Shown in pieces: positions 3,768 to 21,507 of a DNA stretch of 64,000 bases. The number at the start of each line of letters is the position of its first letter. Position 1 is the first letter of the stretch. Made by a program: the position numbers and the translations under genes. The stretch comes from Ignavibacteriales bacterium (GTDB taxonomy: Bacteria; Bacteroidota; Ignavibacteria; Ignavibacteriales; Melioribacteraceae): positions 224,200-288,199 of the forward strand of contig JAPLFG010000005.1 of assembly GCA_026390795.1 (NCBI GenBank). The letters are read 5' to 3'. Under the pieces are notes generated by a model. It did no database searches. It was given only the letters and a program-made list of their open reading frames with translations, and was not told the DNA's origin.

Positions 3768-4256
3768 TTATTTGAACGGAGCTAAATTAAAATAATCTTT
3801 CCCGACTATAATCGAGACATCTAAAAAGTAATCTTTATTGAGCTGCTGAATTACATTTTCCTTTTTAATACCAAGGATTTTTGCAGTCTTGAAAGCATTT
3901 GCCATATTTCCGGACCGATCAATGACGAGACTTTCGTTAACATCATCGGAGATGTAATTACCGGATTTAACTACGTCGAGATTATTATTCCGGAGAAAAT
4001 CAGTGAAGCGGTCTGCAACACCGTTCACTCCGCTTCCATTAAGCACTTCTACCTGTATAATATCTGAAGCAACCTGTTCGGTAAATTGATCATCTTTTAT
4101 ATGCTTGTTATTTGCCAGTTTTAAATAAATAGAATAACCCATATAAATGATTATAGCAGCTAAAAGAAAAATTGAAACATTAAGAATCAAATTTAGTGTG
4201 GATGATTTTAGACCAGCCGATTTAGAAGTTTTTTTTCTTGTGTTGTTCTGTTCCAA
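3768..4256 (-). CDS. Membrane-anchored LytR C-terminal domain protein
   Basis: A 162-aa protein with a basic cytoplasmic N-terminus, one transmembrane helix (about residues 24-45) and a periplasmic LytR_C domain, recognised from VEVLNGSGVNGVADRF and the closing DVSIIVGKDY. LytR_C often accompanies LytR-CpsA-Psr cell-wall ligases, but no catalytic LCP domain is present. In this phylum such stand-alone proteins commonly sit next to rsfS, as here. The start at 4256 is TTG with only a weak ribosome-binding site, so the exact N-terminus is uncertain. Confidence 0.8.
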   Translation of the reverse strand: MEQNNTRKKTSKSAGLKSSTLNLILNVSIFLLAAIIIYMGYSIYLKLANNKHIKDDQFTEQVASDIIQVEVLNGSGVNGVADRFTDFLRNNNLDVVKSGNYISDDVNESLVIDRSGNMANAFKTAKILGIKKENVIQQLNKDYFLDVSIIVGKDYFNLAPFK

Positions 4257-4319
4257 TGATAATTGCGCTCTAATATTTTTTAAGACGTGCGCAATTTAAT
4301 AAAAAAGTATATCTCTTTC

Positions 4320-4820
4320 TCAGAAGCCCCAATTGTTTAAATAACTTCCTCTATCAAATGGAGAGAATCCGCCGTAACCGTATTGAGAATAATATCCGCC
4401 GGGCACATTTCTGTACTGAATCATAATGTTCATATTATCAGACGCCTTAAAATTTAATTGAGCGCGGCTGATATAAACGCCGTTGATCTGCTTTGAAAAT
4501 TCCGGTCCGTATGAATTGTAGGGAGTATTAACTAAACTAATATCTGTTTCCAAATTTAGTCTATCGTTGAATTTGTAAGACATGCTGTTAGTATAAACAC
4601 CAAGAGCCATATTACCATTACCGCCGAATGAAGAGAATGAAAGACCAAAAGAATGGTGCATACTGAAATTATCTGGATTTATAAATCCAAGTAATGAGCC
4701 AAACGAATTGTTCTTTACTATTCCGCTTCTGATATCCGGTTTTTGGTTTGCTTCATCGCGGAATTGTGCATTGGAAACCGAAACTGCAAAAACAAAAAGT
4801 ATTAGAAAAAGTTTTTTCAT
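4320..4820 (-). CDS. Exported protein of unknown function, probable small beta-barrel
   Basis: A 166-aa protein with a clear signal peptide (MKKLFLILFVFAVSVSNAQ). The mature part is rich in glycine, serine, asparagine and aromatic residues with alternating polar/hydrophobic strands (LGVYTNSMSYKF, INGVYISRAQLNF), which suggests an outer-membrane or surface beta protein. An AAAGGG ribosome-binding site precedes ATG 4820. No named family is recognised. It follows the direction of the argS-rsfS group but has its own upstream gap. Confidence 0.7.
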   Translation of the reverse strand: MKKLFLILFVFAVSVSNAQFRDEANQKPDIRSGIVKNNSFGSLLGFINPDNFSMHHSFGLSFSSFGGNGNMALGVYTNSMSYKFNDRLNLETDISLVNTPYNSYGPEFSKQINGVYISRAQLNFKASDNMNIMIQYRNVPGGYYSQYGYGGFSPFDRGSYLNNWGF

Positions 4821-5004
4821 TTCATTTCCCTTTCAAAATCTATCTTTGAACAGCGGCAAAGTTCATTTTGTTTCTGTAATTATAATAAATCTTACTGCTC
4901 AATTTTATCGTATCCAAGCGTCATAATCAAGTCAATTCTGCGTTTCTTTATTCTGATGAAAGATCATATTGATGCATAATGATCAATAATCAATAATCAA
5001 TTCC

Positions 5005-5466
5005 CTAAGTATTCACTCTTACAATCATTTCGATCTCAACGGGAGAATTCATAGGCAATTCTGCAACACCCACCGCGCTTCTTGAATGCTTTCCTGCATC
5101 GCCAAAAACTTGTACTAGAAAATCGGAAGCGCCGTTTGCAATCTTTGGTTGAGAAGTATAACCGACAGCAGAGCTTACAAATACGGTTACCTTTACAATC
5201 TGTTCAATTTTATCGAGATCGCCTATCAATGATTTTACGGCACTTAAACAATTTATGGCAGACATTCTTGCGCATTCAATCCCTTTTTCCTCAGAAATTT
5301 CGTATCCAATCTTTCCTTCGGCTAATAATTTCCCATTTACAAATGGGAGCTGCCCCGATGTAAAAATTAAGTTGCCGCTTTTTTGTGCCGGGATATAACT
5401 TGCAAGAGGTTTCGGCGGTGTTGTTATTTCGAAACCGGTGAGTTCTTTGATTTTCTTTTCAATCAT
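5005..5466 (-). CDS. RidA/YjgF family protein
   Basis: A 153-aa member of the YjgF/YER057c/UK114 family; typical members hydrolyse reactive enamine/imine intermediates. The family core is visible: GNLIFTSGQLPFVNGKLL, then VKVTVFVSS, then RSAVGVAELPMNSPVEIEMI. The Arg of RSAVGV corresponds to the substrate-binding Arg of RidA. The N-terminal extension and NCLSAVKSLIGDLDKI resemble the longer RidA subfamilies, so activity need not match canonical RidA. GAGG precedes ATG 5466. Confidence 0.9.
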   Translation of the reverse strand: MIEKKIKELTGFEITTPPKPLASYIPAQKSGNLIFTSGQLPFVNGKLLAEGKIGYEISEEKGIECARMSAINCLSAVKSLIGDLDKIEQIVKVTVFVSSAVGYTSQPKIANGASDFLVQVFGDAGKHSRSAVGVAELPMNSPVEIEMIVRVNT

Positions 5467-5534
5467 TTTTACCTCTCAAATATTCTGTTTAAATATATCA
5501 AAAAAATAATGATAAAATCTTGCGGAAAAATTTC

Positions 5535-5562
5535 TTGATTCAATTACCGATAATTATCTTTG
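5535..5562 (+). promoter_or_regulatory. Possible Bacteroidota-type promoter of mazG
   Basis: TATCTTTG at 5555-5562 matches the TAnnTTTG -7 consensus known from Bacteroidota, with a TTG at 5535-5537 as a possible -33 element. The spacing of 17 nt is shorter than usual, so this is tentative. Confidence 0.25.
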
Positions 5563-5583
5563 CACACAAAATCGGAGAAAGAA

Positions 5584-6348
5584 ATGACAGGAGAGAAGTT
5601 CGAAAAACTTTGGCTAATTATGAAGCGCTTAAGAGAAGAATGCCCGTGGGATAAAGAACAGACTCATGATTCAATTAAAGCGGCTTTGCTTGAAGAGACA
5701 TACGAAACAATCGAGGCAATCGATCTGAAAGATTATGATGAACTTAAATCTGAACTTGGCGATCTACTTCTGCACATTGTTTTTCATTCTGCTATTGCAG
5801 AAGAGAATAAAACTTTTTCAATTGATGATGTGATCGATTCAATAAGCGAAAAGATGATTCGGCGCCATCCTCATGTTTTCGGGGATACAATAGTCTCGGG
5901 AACTAAAGATATTTTGAGAAACTGGGAAGAGATAAAATTAACGGAAGGACGGGATTCTCTTCTTGAAGGTGTTCCCAAAAATTTACCGGGTCTTGCCCGC
6001 GCATTTCGTCTGCAAGAGAAAGCTTCTAAAGTAGGATTTGATTGGGAGAAAAAAGAAGACGTTTGGAAAAAAGTGATTGAAGAAATTGAAGAGATGCATG
6101 AAATGGAACGATCCGGTGATAAGGTAGAATTTGAAAAAGAAATGGGCGATGTTTTCTTCGCACTTACTAACTATGCAAGATTTCTAGGTATTCACCCCGA
6201 AAATGCACTCCGGCTTACAAATGAAAAATTCATCAAACGGTTTAATTACATTGAGCAAAAAATAAAAGAGAGCGGGAAATCATTAACCAAATCTAATCTT
6301 GAAGAGATGGATAAATTCTGGGAAGAGAGTAAATCAATATTCGGTTAA
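5584..6348 (+). CDS. mazG: Nucleoside triphosphate pyrophosphohydrolase MazG
   Basis: A 254-aa two-domain MazG that hydrolyses (d)NTPs to NMP and pyrophosphate (house-cleaning). The first domain has EETYE...ELGDLLLHIVFH, the second EIEEMHEMERSGD...EMGDVFF; each carries the acidic helix motifs that bind Mg2+. RREECPWD-type text (LREECPWDKEQTH) at the N-terminus is diagnostic. ATG 5584 is chosen because GGAG lies six bases upstream; an in-frame TTG at 5560 has no such site. It is the only plus-strand gene between 1.3 and 17 kb. Confidence 0.95.
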   Translation: MTGEKFEKLWLIMKRLREECPWDKEQTHDSIKAALLEETYETIEAIDLKDYDELKSELGDLLLHIVFHSAIAEENKTFSIDDVIDSISEKMIRRHPHVFGDTIVSGTKDILRNWEEIKLTEGRDSLLEGVPKNLPGLARAFRLQEKASKVGFDWEKKEDVWKKVIEEIEEMHEMERSGDKVEFEKEMGDVFFALTNYARFLGIHPENALRLTNEKFIKRFNYIEQKIKESGKSLTKSNLEEMDKFWEESKSIFG

Positions 6349-6414
6349 TGAAATACAATTTTAATAGTGAAGGTTTTTTAATAGTATTTCATAAAAGTAA
6401 AAATAGTATTCTAT

Positions 6415-7356
6415 TTAAGATCCTTTGCCATTATTGTTATAATGTTTTTCGTATGCGTTAATGATATCTTTAACTAGTTTATGTCTAACTACATCACCTT
6501 TGTCAAAGTAAACAAATCCCACTCCTTCAATTCCATGAAGTATTTCTTTTACTTGAACTAATCCGCTTTGTGAATAACTCGGCAGATCAATCTGAGTAAT
6601 ATCTCCAGTAACAATTGATTTTGAGTTAGGACCGAGACGTGTTAAAAACATTTTCATCTGCATACCGGTTGCGTTTTGAGCTTCATCCAGAATAACGTAA
6701 GCATTATTCAAAGTTCTGCCGCGCATGTAAGCCAGCGGAACAATTTCTACAACTCCTTTTTCAAGATAATTTTTTAACTGTTCTCCAGGAATCATCTCTT
6801 CTAAAGCATCGTAAAGAGGGCGGAGATATGGATCGATCTTTTCTCTGAAATCACCCGGAAGAAATCCAAGACTCTCCCCCGCTTCCACAGCGGGTCGGGC
6901 AAGAATAATTTTTTTTACTATCCCTTTTTTGAGTGCAGCCACAGCAAATGCAACTGCAAGATAAGTCTTTCCTGTTCCGGCAGGACCGATCGCGAAACAG
7001 ATATCATTTTCCTTGACACTTTTAATGTATGTTATTTGGTTCGGCGTTTTTGCTTTGATCACGTCTTTTTTGGAGTAAAGAATTATGCTGTCAAGCTCGT
7101 TATCACTTATAATTTCTTTTCCTTGAAGAGTGAGGTCAATAATTGTATAGACGTCATTTGATTGAAGTTTGCCAGTCGTATTAAGAACAAAGATCATTTC
7201 TTTTACAACTTTTTCAATAGCCGATACTTCTTCTGCTACACCTTGAACAAAAACATTATCTCCGCGCACCGTAACATTTGAAGTAAATCTCTCCTCGAGC
7301 GGTTTAATATTGTTGTCATTAACCCCCATGAAAGAAAGAAGATCTACATTTTCCAA
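6415..7356 (-). CDS. phoH: PhoH-like ATPase
   Basis: A 313-aa PhoH-family P-loop ATPase, associated with RNA metabolism and stress. An N-terminal KH-like region is followed by Walker A GPAGTGKT (about residues 128-135), LARPAVEAGESLGFLPGD and the Walker B/DEAD-like VILDEAQNAT. The end given is the first usual start codon (TTG 7356), which has no ribosome-binding site. The frame stays open upstream, and a strong GGAGG sits five bases before an in-frame ACG at 7380; adding TQVEKILK to LENVDLL looks natural. The true start may therefore be ACG. Confidence 0.93.
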   Translation of the reverse strand: MENVDLLSFMGVNDNNIKPLEERFTSNVTVRGDNVFVQGVAEEVSAIEKVVKEMIFVLNTTGKLQSNDVYTIIDLTLQGKEIISDNELDSIILYSKKDVIKAKTPNQITYIKSVKENDICFAIGPAGTGKTYLAVAFAVAALKKGIVKKIILARPAVEAGESLGFLPGDFREKIDPYLRPLYDALEEMIPGEQLKNYLEKGVVEIVPLAYMRGRTLNNAYVILDEAQNATGMQMKMFLTRLGPNSKSIVTGDITQIDLPSYSQSGLVQVKEILHGIEGVGFVYFDKGDVVRHKLVKDIINAYEKHYNNNGKGS

Positions 7357-17024: not shown

Positions 17025-17489
17025 ATGAACTACTACATAATAGATGGAAATAATTTAATAGGTCGGATAAAATCATTACAGCAAATTCAAAAAAAAGATA
17101 AACAGGCCAGCCGTGAACAATTAATTTATTTTCTTAATAGACATTTTGCAGGCAAGAAGGTAAAGCTTTCACTTCATTTGGATGGGCATCCGAATCTCCC
17201 TCTATCAATTTCAAAAGGAAAAATAACGTATTCCTTTAATCAGCCATCCGATAACTTTATTAGAAAAGAAATTGAAATCTCTTCCAATCCAAGATTGATA
17301 ACCCTTGTAACTTCAGATCATAGTTTAATGAACTTCGGAAAAGTTTGCGGCTGTAAGGTAATATCAGCGGATGATTTTTATAGAGAAACCGAAAAATCTT
17401 CTGTAAAGAATGATGAGGCGGAAAAGATAAACCAGTTAGAAAAAAATAATGATGAGTTCCTAAAACTTTTTCAGAATAAAAAAAGGTAG
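17025..17489 (+). CDS. NYN-domain (YacP-like) ribonuclease-family protein
   Basis: A 154-aa PIN-like NYN domain. It starts with YYIIDGNNLIG, the acidic metal-binding start of YacP/NYN nucleases, and continues with LVTSDHSL and CKVISADDFY. The C-terminal 35 residues are charged and helical. Relatives such as Rae1/YacP act on RNA at the ribosome; this role is inferred. A hairpin with TAGATTT/AAATCTA arms begins at the stop codon. Confidence 0.82.
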   Translation: MNYYIIDGNNLIGRIKSLQQIQKKDKQASREQLIYFLNRHFAGKKVKLSLHLDGHPNLPLSISKGKITYSFNQPSDNFIRKEIEISSNPRLITLVTSDHSLMNFGKVCGCKVISADDFYRETEKSSVKNDEAEKINQLEKNNDEFLKLFQNKKR

Positions 17490-17603: not shown

Positions 17604-18920
17604 ATGTTCTGGATAAGCAAAACCATACATTATCTAAGCAGATTCAAGCGCCGCACAATATTACTCTTTGCTGTTATAGGTCCCGGTATAATAACGATGG
17701 TTGCCGATAATGATGCGGGCGGCATATCAACTTATGCGGTAACCGGTTCAAAGTATGGGTTCAATTTGCTTTGGGTATTTTTCATTCTTATACCGATGGC
17801 ATATTTTATTCAAGAAATGACTGTTCGTTTGGGTGCAGTAACAAAACGCGGTCATGCAGAAGCAATCTTTGACGGTTTCGGAAAATTTTGGGGTTGGTTT
17901 TCAATTTTTGATCTTGCAGTAGTTAATTGGCTTACTCTGGTTACAGAGTATATCGGCATGACAGAAGCAATGCTGATGTTTGGTGTTCCTCCGTGGATTA
18001 CATTTCTATTTGTTACAGCAATTTTGATGCTGGTCGTTCTCTCCGGTAAATATTGGACGTTCGAAAAAATTACACTATTGTTTTGCGTTTTCAATCTTGT
18101 TTATATACCTGCAGCATTATGGGCTATGGACACGCCTACAGCACCGGGCTGGGGTGCAGTTGCGGATGGTTTTATCAATCCGAAATTTCCCGGCGGCTTA
18201 ACTCAAGACTTAATTTTTATTGTGATGGCAAATATTGGAACTACAATTACACCATGGCAAATATTTTTTCAACAGAGTGCAGTTGTTGATAAAGGAATGG
18301 ATGTTAGAGATATTAAATATGGAAAGATAGACACGCTTGCAGGTTCAACATTAACCGGTATTGTTGCAGTTTTTATTATTATCGTTACAGGCGCCGCATT
18401 TTATTATCACTCTCCACAAATAATCATTCAAGATGCAAAACAATCGGCAGATGCTTTAGTTCCTTTACTTCCACACGGGCAGGGAGATTGGGCACGGAGA
18501 TTATTCGCAATCGGTCTTTTCGATGCTGGATTTCTTGGCGCTTTGTGTATCTCGCTTTCAACATCTTGGGCGGTAGGAGAAGTATTTGGCTGGGCGCACT
18601 CACTTAATAAAAGCGTTAAGGACGCACCTTGGTTTTATGTTGTTTACTTAGGAACATTGACAACAGCAGGCGCTATTGTGCTAATTCCCGGTGCACCGCT
18701 AATTACAATTACAATGTTCGTTCAGGTTGTAGCCGTTACGTTATTACCCGCGGCGTTAATGTTTCTAATTTTGCTTTTGAATGATGAAAATTTGATGGGC
18801 GAATACAAAAACACCCGGACACAAAATATTATTAACTGGGGCATTACAATTTTTGTAGTTCTTATCTCAACACTGTTCGGCCTAACTATCCTATTTCCCG
18901 AATTTATTAAGTTAGTGTAG
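17604..18920 (+). CDS. NRAMP (SLC11)-family divalent metal transporter with non-canonical metal site
   Basis: A 438-aa inner-membrane protein with about eleven hydrophobic helices and NRAMP-type helix 1 (GPGIITMVADNDAGG, residues 26-40) and helix 6 (NIGTTITPWQ, 210-219). In canonical Mn/Fe NRAMPs helix 1 has DPGN and helix 6 has MPH. Here they read DAGG (D37, G40) and TPW (T216), so Asp is kept but the Asn and the Met ligand are lost. Loss of the soft Met ligand argues against classic Mn2+/Fe2+ selectivity. Mg2+, as in NRAMP-related magnesium transporters, is a reasonable idea, since the next gene encodes MgtE-type cytoplasmic domains 10 bp downstream. Confidence 0.88.
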   Translation: MFWISKTIHYLSRFKRRTILLFAVIGPGIITMVADNDAGGISTYAVTGSKYGFNLLWVFFILIPMAYFIQEMTVRLGAVTKRGHAEAIFDGFGKFWGWFSIFDLAVVNWLTLVTEYIGMTEAMLMFGVPPWITFLFVTAILMLVVLSGKYWTFEKITLLFCVFNLVYIPAALWAMDTPTAPGWGAVADGFINPKFPGGLTQDLIFIVMANIGTTITPWQIFFQQSAVVDKGMDVRDIKYGKIDTLAGSTLTGIVAVFIIIVTGAAFYYHSPQIIIQDAKQSADALVPLLPHGQGDWARRLFAIGLFDAGFLGALCISLSTSWAVGEVFGWAHSLNKSVKDAPWFYVVYLGTLTTAGAIVLIPGAPLITITMFVQVVAVTLLPAALMFLILLLNDENLMGEYKNTRTQNIINWGITIFVVLISTLFGLTILFPEFIKLV

Positions 18921-18930
18921 GAGAAAATTT

Positions 18931-20214
18931 ATGGCACAATTAAATAATCATACTATTAAGATGCATGAGTTGCCATCGGGTACAAAAGAATTTAGATTTT
19001 TAAATTTTCTCGAGCTTATCAAACTGCCAGTTTGCGCCGGAAAGATTAAAGACAAAATCGGAAAGGTTACAGATATTGTATTTAAGCTTAGCGAACCATT
19101 CCCCGAAGCAATTGGAATTTACATCGAACATGGTTGGGGAAAACCTACAGAATTTGTTCAATGGGATAAAGTTATAAAGATTGAAGATGATGCAATTTTT
19201 GTTCAGAAACTTGAAGAAGGAAAAACTTATCCGCCTTTTGTTGATCAGCCCGGATGGATTTTAGTAAATGAGCATTTGATCGGCAGAACAATTCTTGATA
19301 TGGATGGAAGAAGAATTGAAGTTGTAAATGATGTTCATCTTCTTGAAACAAAAGAAAAAATGATAATCGTTCATGTTGATATTTCTTTCAATGGATTTTT
19401 ACGAAAGTGGGGATTCAGACGAATAAGAGTAATGAAAGATCAGTTGATACCATGGAAATATGTTCAGCCGTTATCTCTAGAAGATGCTGGAAGCAAAGAT
19501 AAGGTCTCACTTTCAATTACAAGAAATCAAATCAAAGAATTGCCCGCGGAAGATCTTGCAGATGCGTTGGAAGAACTTTCAGGCGAAGAACAGCAGGCTG
19601 TCTTTTCTGCTCTTGATTCAGAGACTGCAGCAGAAACATTGATTGAAGCTGAACCACGGGCTAAAAGACAATTGATGTCTAATCTACGCAAGGAAAGAGC
19701 ACAAAATATTTTATCCGAGATGTCAATTCCTCAACTCGCTAATTTGTTTTCAGTTCTTCCAAACGATGATGTAATTGAATTAATACAATTAGTACCCATA
19801 GCAGATGCAGAGAAGATTAGCAAGATACTATCGGAAAAAGAAGAAACTGCCCGCGTGATGATGACTTCAAATTATCTTGCAGCACCAAAAGAAAAGACAA
19901 CCGGTGAAATTTTAAAGTCATTAAAAAATTCGGATGTTGATCGAAGTAATATATCTTACATTTATGTAATCGCACCGGAAGATAATACTCTTCTTGGCGT
20001 AGTTGATTTAAGAGAACTTGTAATTGCACCGGATGAAACTACGTTGGCAGATATAATGGTTTCTCCGGTAGTAACTGCTGAAGAGGAAGATCTTAGAGAT
20101 GATCTTGAAGAATTATTTGCCAAGTATCATTACAGAATGATCCCGATTGTTGACAGACATGATAAACTTCTAGGCGTCATTAAAGATAAAGATATTTTAG
20201 CAGGAGCAGATTAA
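18931..20214 (+). CDS. Soluble PRC-barrel / MgtE_N / CBS regulatory protein
   Basis: A 427-aa cytosolic protein. Residues about 25-180 contain two PRC-barrel-like beta units (AGKIKDKIGKVTDIVFKL; IGRTILDMDGRRIEVVNDV). About 203-305 form an MgtE N-terminal helical superhelix (LPAEDLADALEELSGEEQ, IPQLANLFSVLPNDD). About 308-427 form a CBS pair (TTLADIMVSPVVTAEEEDL, YRMIPIVDRHDKLLGVI). These are the Mg2+/nucleotide-sensing parts of MgtE channels, but no MgtE membrane domain follows. It lies 10 bp after the NRAMP-like gene, so it probably controls that transporter in trans. Confidence 0.88.
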   Translation: MAQLNNHTIKMHELPSGTKEFRFLNFLELIKLPVCAGKIKDKIGKVTDIVFKLSEPFPEAIGIYIEHGWGKPTEFVQWDKVIKIEDDAIFVQKLEEGKTYPPFVDQPGWILVNEHLIGRTILDMDGRRIEVVNDVHLLETKEKMIIVHVDISFNGFLRKWGFRRIRVMKDQLIPWKYVQPLSLEDAGSKDKVSLSITRNQIKELPAEDLADALEELSGEEQQAVFSALDSETAAETLIEAEPRAKRQLMSNLRKERAQNILSEMSIPQLANLFSVLPNDDVIELIQLVPIADAEKISKILSEKEETARVMMTSNYLAAPKEKTTGEILKSLKNSDVDRSNISYIYVIAPEDNTLLGVVDLRELVIAPDETTLADIMVSPVVTAEEEDLRDDLEELFAKYHYRMIPIVDRHDKLLGVIKDKDILAGAD

Positions 20215-20237
20215 AAAAAATCAATCAGAGGTTGAAG

Positions 20238-20351
20238 ATGCCGCAAGTAAAAACAACTCCTATGGTAAAATTTGCCATGATATTTTTAAGATTGTATCTG
20301 ATTATAATGCTGGTACTGATCGGATTTAAATTTTTCAAAAGTATTTGGTAG
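20238..20351 (+). CDS. 37-aa single-pass membrane peptide in the metal-transporter operon
   Basis: A short gene 23 bp after the CBS protein, with AGAGG seven bases before ATG 20238 and TAG at 20349. The peptide is MPQVKTTPMVKFAMIFLRLY, then a strongly hydrophobic LIIMLVLIGF, ending KFFKSIW; one transmembrane helix with a basic C-terminus is evident. No family is recognised. Position and topology recall small membrane proteins that tune Mg2+ or Mn2+ transporters in other bacteria, which is inference only. Confidence 0.6.
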   Translation: MPQVKTTPMVKFAMIFLRLYLIIMLVLIGFKFFKSIW

Positions 20352-20419: not shown

Positions 20420-20596
20420 TTATTTTTTGATATAAGCGTTCAGACCAATTATCACATTTTTACCATCAACGAGACATTGCGTTGTAGTATTGCCGTGTGT
20501 AGTTGCTACTACTAAAGTTTTTCCTGAAGCACTTGGTGTTGGTTCCTGCAAATCAATGCTTATAAGAAGCTTTCCATTTTCGATTTTTACTTCCAT
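20420..20596 (-). CDS. 58-aa conserved-looking small protein
   Basis: ATG 20596 is preceded by AGGAG eight bases upstream and the frame ends with TAA at 20420. The 58-residue product begins MEVKIENGKLLISIDLQE, contains SASGKTLVVATTHGNT and ends VIIGLNAYIKK. The SASGKTLVVA-(S/T)-x-GN pattern resembles a small conserved protein I recall from scattered bacteria, of unknown function. No signal peptide or membrane segment. It points toward the metal-transporter operon from the opposite strand. Confidence 0.7.
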   Translation of the reverse strand: MEVKIENGKLLISIDLQEPTPSASGKTLVVATTHGNTTTQCLVDGKNVIIGLNAYIKK

Positions 20597-20721: not shown

Positions 20722-21507
20722 TTAACTTATTTTTTTCATTAACGCTTTCACTCTGTCAGGATCAATTGGATTTGACCATATACCATTTACCTTAAAATAA
20801 GATCCGATAATGAGAGCGTCGCAATATTCAAAATATTGATTTACATTCTTTTCTGTTAAACCGGAACCGGCAATCACCGGAATATTAACATTCTCTTTCA
20901 CTTGTTTAATTTCATTTAAGGATGGTTCTTTACCAGTTGCGCTTCCTGTTATTATGACTCCATCGCTTAAAAAGAATTCCGCTGCTTTGGCTGTATCAAC
21001 AATATCCGTATCGGATGTAATTGAGTGCGAGCTGTGTTTTTTCTTGATGTCTGTAAATACTAATACATTCTCCGCGCCAATTTGTTTTCTGTAGCGTAAT
21101 AATTCACCTGCATCTGAATTGAACATACCTTCATCCGCAATGTGAGCAAATACAAATCCTTCTGCCCGTATAAAATCCGCTCCGGCAGAATGCGCGGCGG
21201 CAATTGCTTGTTTATTAGCACCGGCAAGGATCTGAATTCCGGTTGGCATTTCGAAATTCCTTTTGATCTCATATAATATTATGCTCATGAGCGATGTAAC
21301 TTCTGGTCCAACAATTCGATTAAGATAGGGAACATCATGCATATTTTCTATCATCAATGCGTTTAGACCACACGAGCGGTATAATGATGCCTCTGATTTT
21401 GCTTTATCGATAATTGCTTTGACGTTTCCAGAATATTTTGGTGTACCCGGTAAAGAATCAACGTGGATCATACCTATTATTGGTTTGTGATTATTAAATA
21501 GTTTCAT
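20722..21507 (-). CDS. BtpA/SgcQ family TIM-barrel protein
   Basis: A 261-aa protein with the family signature KPIIGMIHVDSLPGTP at the N-terminus, then LNALMIENMHDVPY, ADFIRAEGFVF, VIITGSATG and IPVIAGSGLTEKNV, giving a TIM barrel. BtpA is needed for photosystem I stability in cyanobacteria, while SgcQ-type homologues occur widely in non-phototrophs with unknown substrate, which is the more likely case here. It stands alone between the 58-aa gene and the GIY-YIG gene. Confidence 0.88.
   Translation of the reverse strand: MKLFNNHKPIIGMIHVDSLPGTPKYSGNVKAIIDKAKSEASLYRSCGLNALMIENMHDVPYLNRIVGPEVTSLMSIILYEIKRNFEMPTGIQILAGANKQAIAAAHSAGADFIRAEGFVFAHIADEGMFNSDAGELLRYRKQIGAENVLVFTDIKKKHSSHSITSDTDIVDTAKAAEFFLSDGVIITGSATGKEPSLNEIKQVKENVNIPVIAGSGLTEKNVNQYFEYCDALIIGSYFKVNGIWSNPIDPDRVKALMKKIS

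Follow-up and report, generated by a model that had tools for sequence, protein, structure and literature searches.

What does a 37-residue membrane peptide do when it is encoded directly behind a metal transporter and a soluble relative of a channel's cytosolic domain? The question is raised by a locus in a 64,000-nucleotide stretch of DNA from an Ignavibacteriales bacterium (contig JAPLFG010000005.1, positions 224,200 to 288,199), hereafter the window. Three genes on the + strand, spaced by 10 and 23 bp, form the operon: nrmT (17604-18920) encodes a 438-residue transporter of the NRAMP family, the second gene (18931-20214) encodes a soluble protein of 427 residues that we call the sensor, and a 37-codon open reading frame (20238-20351) encodes the peptide. 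The open reading frame coordinates confirm this layout and its gaps as given in a first-pass annotation of the window. That annotation gave the micropeptide little weight, yet the peptide is the best supported new part of the system, a conserved protein with one predicted helix and no Pfam or NCBIfam family. We read the operon as coding for an importer of three parts that takes up a divalent metal, most likely Mg2+; the peptide would be a subunit of it and the sensor would act in trans. We give this reading a probability of about 0.55.

The peptide starts with the ATG at 20238, and its stop codon ends at 20351. Hydropathy predicts a single transmembrane helix over residues 12-30 (20271-20327, + strand), which contains the conserved motif L17-R18-x-Y20; across 30 aligned peptides the Leu, Arg and Tyr are found in 30, 27 and 30 rows. 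Lys and Arg residues are more numerous before the helix than after it in 28 of the 30, and equal in the remaining two. Comparison of the window with its nearest relative (genome G047) gave 7.5 synonymous changes over 22.0 sites and 1.5 nonsynonymous changes over 89.0 sites, and the median ratio of nonsynonymous to synonymous rates was 0.08 over 306 unsaturated pairs among 30 distinct Chlorobiota peptides. These codon comparisons indicate that the peptide is under purifying selection, and the first-pass description of a 37-residue one-helix peptide is borne out, with conservation in relatives. The window peptide matched no family (0) among the Pfam and NCBIfam models, and 30 members of its family gave isolated weak matches only (the best, DltX, 0.0017 in one of the 30). 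No paper on such a peptide was found among the matches listed in open PubMed Central, a collection outside which most subscription papers lie.

The gene is fixed in its operon. Our genome-contig scan took the best 80 of 582 confirmed relatives, which cover the window's branch and its sister, not all NRMTs. By their record titles they come from many bacterial phyla, from methanogenic archaea and from candidate phyla radiation groups; most are metagenome bins, and single assignments may be wrong. In 77 of these 80 loci, in bacteria and archaea, the operon includes a homologue of the peptide, and the other three (L095, L104 and L114) end at a contig edge. The profile search placed it in 75 loci, to which L118 and L156 were added after a length filter was lifted. 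Two layouts occur. The order nrmT-sensor-peptide, as in the window, has the peptide in 26 of 29 loci (three are cut), and the order nrmT-peptide-sensor has it in 51 of 51 (48 by profile, two by checking dropped frames). In the Chlorobiota of the Bacteroidota survey described below, the homologue is 55-59 residues long and sits between nrmT and the sensor gene; all 27 loci (L010-L036) have it. A. caldus has a separate 71-residue product after nrmT (20.6 bits against the peptide profile). The sensor was detected in 77 of the 80 loci, with L095, L104 and L132 (of the second layout) cut.

The first-pass annotation had called for a survey of gene neighbourhoods; in 296 Bacteroidota genomes, 35 NRMT genes above 500 bits were found in 34 genomes, and the sensor gene adjoins 34 of the 35. 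The exception, L033 in genome G177, is on a contig that ends shortly after nrmT and the peptide; a partial second copy in G177 (contig C67, 291 bits) lies outside the 35. Peptide-profile matches were found in 34 of 292 Bacteroidota genomes, 33 of them with a close nrmT. The other match (G148) was taken as chance, being weak, with an internal stop and no NRMT match listed. One genome with a close nrmT and the peptide, G295, is outside the 34 and possibly not in the 292-genome draw. A whole-genome search for 36 of the 80 loci gave a peptide match in all 36 genomes, and for five (those of L117, L121, L129, L138 and L163) arithmetic identifies the main match as the one in the operon. Three extra weak matches appeared. 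Two of them, L183 and L184, are further nrmT loci described below; the third, L185, mostly outside the model helix and in a 219-residue frame without a transporter match, was taken as chance. Among members of the window's genus, all three genes are present in G047, a weak NRMT match is the only one in G176, and G082 has none; the distribution is therefore patchy.

Two related loci, L167 (NZ_LR881935) and L168 (CP068396), both at 4001-6713, lie on conjugative IncHI plasmids of Citrobacter freundii and Serratia marcescens. There, the nrmT, peptide and sensor genes have a P-type ATPase gene and genes for transposases as neighbours. The PLSDB tables for these two records, which are incomplete, list no gene at the peptide.

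A possible role for the peptide is suggested by distant NRMTs that carry a matching helix in the same chain. Some plasmid-borne NRMTs, as extracted here, are 530-573 residues long and have, by hydropathy, a C-terminal extra transmembrane helix (TM12), a charged linker and TM13; a query made from this end matched 34 plasmid records. These long proteins are represented in our set by clade C, 13 loci of which L181 gave no protein and L182 a partial one, leaving 11 scored proteins. The peptide profile matches best at TM13 in every complete long NRMT (11 of 11), within profile positions 23-56 and with independent E-values from 1e-6 to 9e-3; an extra match occurred only in L172, with a negative score. 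The scores being low, the argument for the TM13 match rests on its uniform place and register. In the NRAMP fold, helix 11 is expected to end outside. TM12 would therefore return and TM13 would start inside, which agrees with the charge pattern of the peptide. Since the matching helix is fused as TM13 and the topologies agree, the peptide is best read as a transporter helix that has become separate, and hence as a probable subunit. L182 (NZ_CP049158) is a Caballeronia NRMT apparently split across two reading frames. Among viral contigs searched for a fused NRMT, four pattern matches appeared and no relative.

Loci with a part missing or exchanged indicate which partner the peptide follows. L183 and L184 encode an nrmT product about 42% identical to that of the window, directly followed by a frame of 75 or 82 residues ending in the same helix. 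No sensor was found near either at E 1e-3 with four queries in 8 kb each (only about 1 kb upstream in L183). The transporters of these two loci (L183 1071-2759, L184 3841-5604) have an altered metal site, GATVTPW, with END instead of DND. Among the 34 fused-helix plasmid records, 11 also matched a sensor query and 23 did not; that search used one query on plasmids only, and a sensor elsewhere in the genome is possible. The reverse combination occurs as well. Of six weaker NRMTs (244.8-254.2 bits), five have an upstream sensor gene and no peptide (clade B, 5/5), and the sixth, L069, has a Met-type site and neither sensor nor peptide. In L126 (902-3820), an nrmT and peptide of the second layout stand beside a sensor 76% identical to that of the window, a first-layout type, which looks like a natural exchange of sensor genes. 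From the sensor-less peptide loci, clade B and L126, we conclude that the peptide follows the transporter and not the sensor.

The transporter itself belongs to a particular branch of its family. Its product matches Pfam Nramp with 265.6 bits, and among solved structures it comes closest to EleNRMT (7qia, E=5e-65); the NRAMP chain that ranks next reaches 9e-17. In the accessible text on EleNRMT, the metal site comprises Asp55 of helix 1, Glu133 of helix 3, Thr224 of helix 6 and Gln379 of helix 10, and an Ala replaces the Met ligand of classical NRAMPs (PMC8806188). The alignment places D37, G40, E115, T213 and Q374 of the window at the metal-site positions. The NRMT features of a retained Asp (D37, codon 17712-17714, aligned with metal-binding Asp55), Asn replaced by Gly in helix 1 (G40) and Ala replaced by Thr in helix 6 (T213) are thus present. 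The helix 6 Met ligand is absent, and the last residue of the TM6 site T213-T-I-T216 (18240-18251, + strand) is a Thr. This place was Thr in 20, Ala in 10 and without a match to the pattern in one of 31 first-layout rows, and Ala in 55 of 55 second-layout rows. Because of this Thr, we call the window transporter an NRMT-branch variant rather than a typical NRMT. Identity as a classical MntH was rejected, the classical NRAMP chains scoring far below EleNRMT and the Met ligand being absent.

In a tree built by a quick method, from which L104 and L166 were omitted for internal stops, each layout forms one group (support 99 and 98) and the two layouts are sisters (95). EleNRMT joins clade B (83), outside the peptide-bearing group; the deeper joins are unsure, with long branches. 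The first-pass annotation had seen an NRAMP-fold transporter next to Mg2+-gating domains, and had suggested a modular swap of the gate onto an unrelated pore. The fold stands, but the transporter is not a generic member; it belongs to the NRMT branch, which has been proposed to carry Mg2+. A Mg2+ sensor beside such a transporter is less of a swap for this reason, and the suggestion is weakened.

The sensor was described there as a soluble PRC/MgtE_N/CBS protein without the channel, and the Pfam domains and the absence of any transmembrane part support this. A PRC-barrel domain spans residues 28-96 (19012-19218, 36.3 bits, with matching AlphaFold2 strands), the MgtE_N domain residues 205-301 (19543-19833, 62.8 bits) and the CBS pair residues 307-423 (19849-20199, 54.7 bits over two stretches), all on the + strand. 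Between the first two, residues 109-174 (19255-19452) have no Pfam match, and their AlphaFold2 strand pattern resembles a second beta-barrel, inferred to be PRC-like. The AlphaFold2 model (55 sequences, the window and 54 of 72 listed sensor references; mean predicted local distance difference test score 83.9, predicted template modelling score 0.43) contains two regions rich in strands, a helical N domain and the CBS pair, and its top eight structural matches are all cytosolic-domain chains of MgtE (Z 18.8-20.9). TIGR00400 scored 110.8 bits, below its cut-off of 232.75, and covers only positions 20-248 of 450. The protein ends four residues past the CBS match, so the MgtE plug helix is missing and any gating must act in trans; neither this helix nor the transmembrane channel domain was found. 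By sequence, the sensor thus consists of the cytosolic part of an MgtE-type channel and two beta-barrels, with neither plug helix nor pore. No fusion of sensor and transporter was identified, although the open frame around some sensors is long (up to 935 codons).

We compared the ligand-binding residues of MgtE with those of the sensors. For the ATP pocket, the MgtE residues were taken from the accessible text of PMC5529423. In 79 clade A sensors the residue class is kept at five of the six places: Y170 in 97%, R187 in 95%, D188 in 91% (mostly as Glu), V207 in 97% and F227 in 96%, with N203 at 4%. The background mean over all 229 sensor columns is 46%. The window retains Y343, R361, E362 and Y401 in this pocket. 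The Mg2+-site residues were E59, D91, D95, D226 and D247, likewise from part of the source (PMC5882242); E59 is kept in 95%, D247 in 96% and D95 in 78% of clade A sensors (Asn in the window), and D91 and D226 are mostly lost, as detailed below. Clade B sensors keep D91, D95 and D247 in 5 of 5. The sensor therefore retains the ATP pocket of MgtE better than its Mg2+ sites, and by these counts a response to ATP is better supported than a full Mg2+ switch.

Riboswitches give an indication of the metal. In 5 of the 80 loci, which form two groups in the tree, nrmT is preceded at a distance of 280-630 nt by an M-box riboswitch on its own strand: L097 (3316-3493), L099 (3201-3375) and L101 (499-675) of the first layout, and L139 (3513-3680) and L158 (3511-3678) of the second. 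Short open reading frames lie between the M-box and nrmT in L097 and L139, the two loci looked at. A Mn2+ riboswitch reached the threshold in none of the 80. A cobalamin riboswitch downstream of the operon in L153 (7145-7339) is apparently unrelated.

Taken together, the peptide would insert with its N-terminus in the cytosol and pack onto the transporter as a detached thirteenth helix, an integral subunit. The soluble sensor would dock on the cytosolic face of the transporter-peptide complex, and at ample cytosolic Mg2+ and ATP it would lower uptake, in the way that these domains act in cis within MgtE. More broadly, it is somewhat better than an even chance that a large NRMT branch in bacteria and archaea has an overlooked one-helix subunit (detached TM13) which makes up a three-part importer with the MgtE cytosolic sensor, put to new use as an ATP/Mg2+ gauge in trans, and that these parts can be separate, fused or swapped.

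Several observations weigh against this reading. In 11 of 13 clade C loci the protein ends score 9.6-18.0 bits, L172 and L181 stay below 5 bits, and chance frames among the 18,787 of a six-frame scan reach up to 10.8 bits and once 17.3, overlapping the fused-helix scores. The sensor model deviates from MgtE by a root-mean-square distance of 14.6-16.4 Å, so the domain placement differs. As for Mg2+, D226 is kept in 11% and D91 in 0% of clade A sensors, and where typical NRMTs have Ala in place of Met the window has Thr216. The window has no M-box (three sub-threshold matches were taken as chance), and all five M-box loci carry Ala rather than Thr at this place, which makes Mg2+ no more than probable as the substrate of the window transporter. 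In the accessible text of PMC4072509, the Acidobacterium capsulatum transporter fully rescued a Mn2+ defect, and co-expression of its neighbour did not improve Mg2+ rescue further. The system may then serve Mn2+ or another divalent metal, with the sensor reporting ATP or that metal; the Mn2+ rescue (PMC4072509), Thr216 and the two lost Asp residues would all fit. The M-boxes before five of 80 related operons, with no Mn2+ riboswitch above threshold in the 80, speak for Mg2+ instead, and we regard another metal as a tentative alternative, with odds of roughly one in four.

The role of the peptide can also be read differently. It could be an adaptor, a membrane helix whose cytosolic end recruits the sensor to the transporter and stands in for the MgtE plug helix. 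The occurrence of all three genes together in most loci, the basic and partly conserved cytosolic end of the peptide and the lack of a membrane part in the sensor are consistent with this. However, the helix is found without a nearby sensor match in L183, L184 and the 23 plasmid records searched with one query, and clade B sensors do without the peptide; we think an adaptor unlikely. Equally doubtful is a small modulator, as opposed to a constant subunit, that binds the transporter and inhibits or stabilizes it under some conditions only. Transporter modulators are known among small membrane proteins, but this peptide is in the operon of every complete locus of the branch examined (77 of 77), and distant NRMTs have the matching helix permanently in their chain. 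Finally, the 37-codon frame might be stray and without product, since it matches no known family and its relatives on two plasmids have no gene entry in the incomplete PLSDB tables. Its fixed position, the purifying selection on it and its conservation in 77 of 80 loci refute this, and we give it almost no weight. A detached subunit thus remains our preferred role for the peptide. If it holds, work on transporters of this NRMT branch reconstituted without the peptide deals with an incomplete transporter, and a conserved gene for which neither Pfam nor NCBIfam has a model has been overlooked so far. The natural fusion, separation and swap of the parts offer test cases for a channel module controlling an unrelated carrier. 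The peptide might also bear on the null effect of co-expressing the related sensor, if that operon has one.

Upstream of nrmT lies a gene for a YacP-like NYN protein (17025-17489, + strand). Downstream, on the - strand, are a 58-residue open reading frame without a family (20420-20596) and a gene of the BtpA/SgcQ family (20722-21507). BtpA is linked to photosynthesis; the host genome lies outside the photosynthetic groups where BtpA was named. A scan found 14 promoter-like sites (12.5 expected) and one terminator-like site (1.8 expected). Elsewhere the host genome has two further NRAMP genes and a 455-residue frame with MgtE_N.

The closest known system is the group of NrmT operons. In the accessible text of Shin et al. 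(2014), most members of the NrmT group adjoin a homologue of the MgtE cytosolic domain, and feedback regulation is proposed (PMC4072509). The pairing of nrmT with a sensor and the idea of regulation in trans are thus already known (PMC4072509), and the window shares both the NRMT-type gene beside an MgtE-cytosolic-domain gene and the proposed trans feedback. The word "peptide" is absent from that text, Figure S5 lying outside this scope, and one common additional gene is named. EleNRMT shares the Asp, Gly, Thr, Glu and Gln of the metal site with the window, as far as its accessible description goes, whereas it has Ala where the window has Thr in TM6, and it is placed outside the peptide group in the tree (83). 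The MgtE cytosolic domain (2yvy, 5x9g) shares with the sensor the MgtE_N domain, the CBS pair and the residue classes of the ATP pocket; the sensor differs in its two added beta-barrels, the missing plug helix and channel and the partial loss of the Mg2+ sites. Tiny membrane proteins encoded or induced together with a transporter, such as KdpF, MgtS and MntS, are familiar. By description only, the window peptide resembles them as a tiny membrane protein accompanying a transporter, and its family is unlike them in that some transporters carry the matching helix in their own chain.

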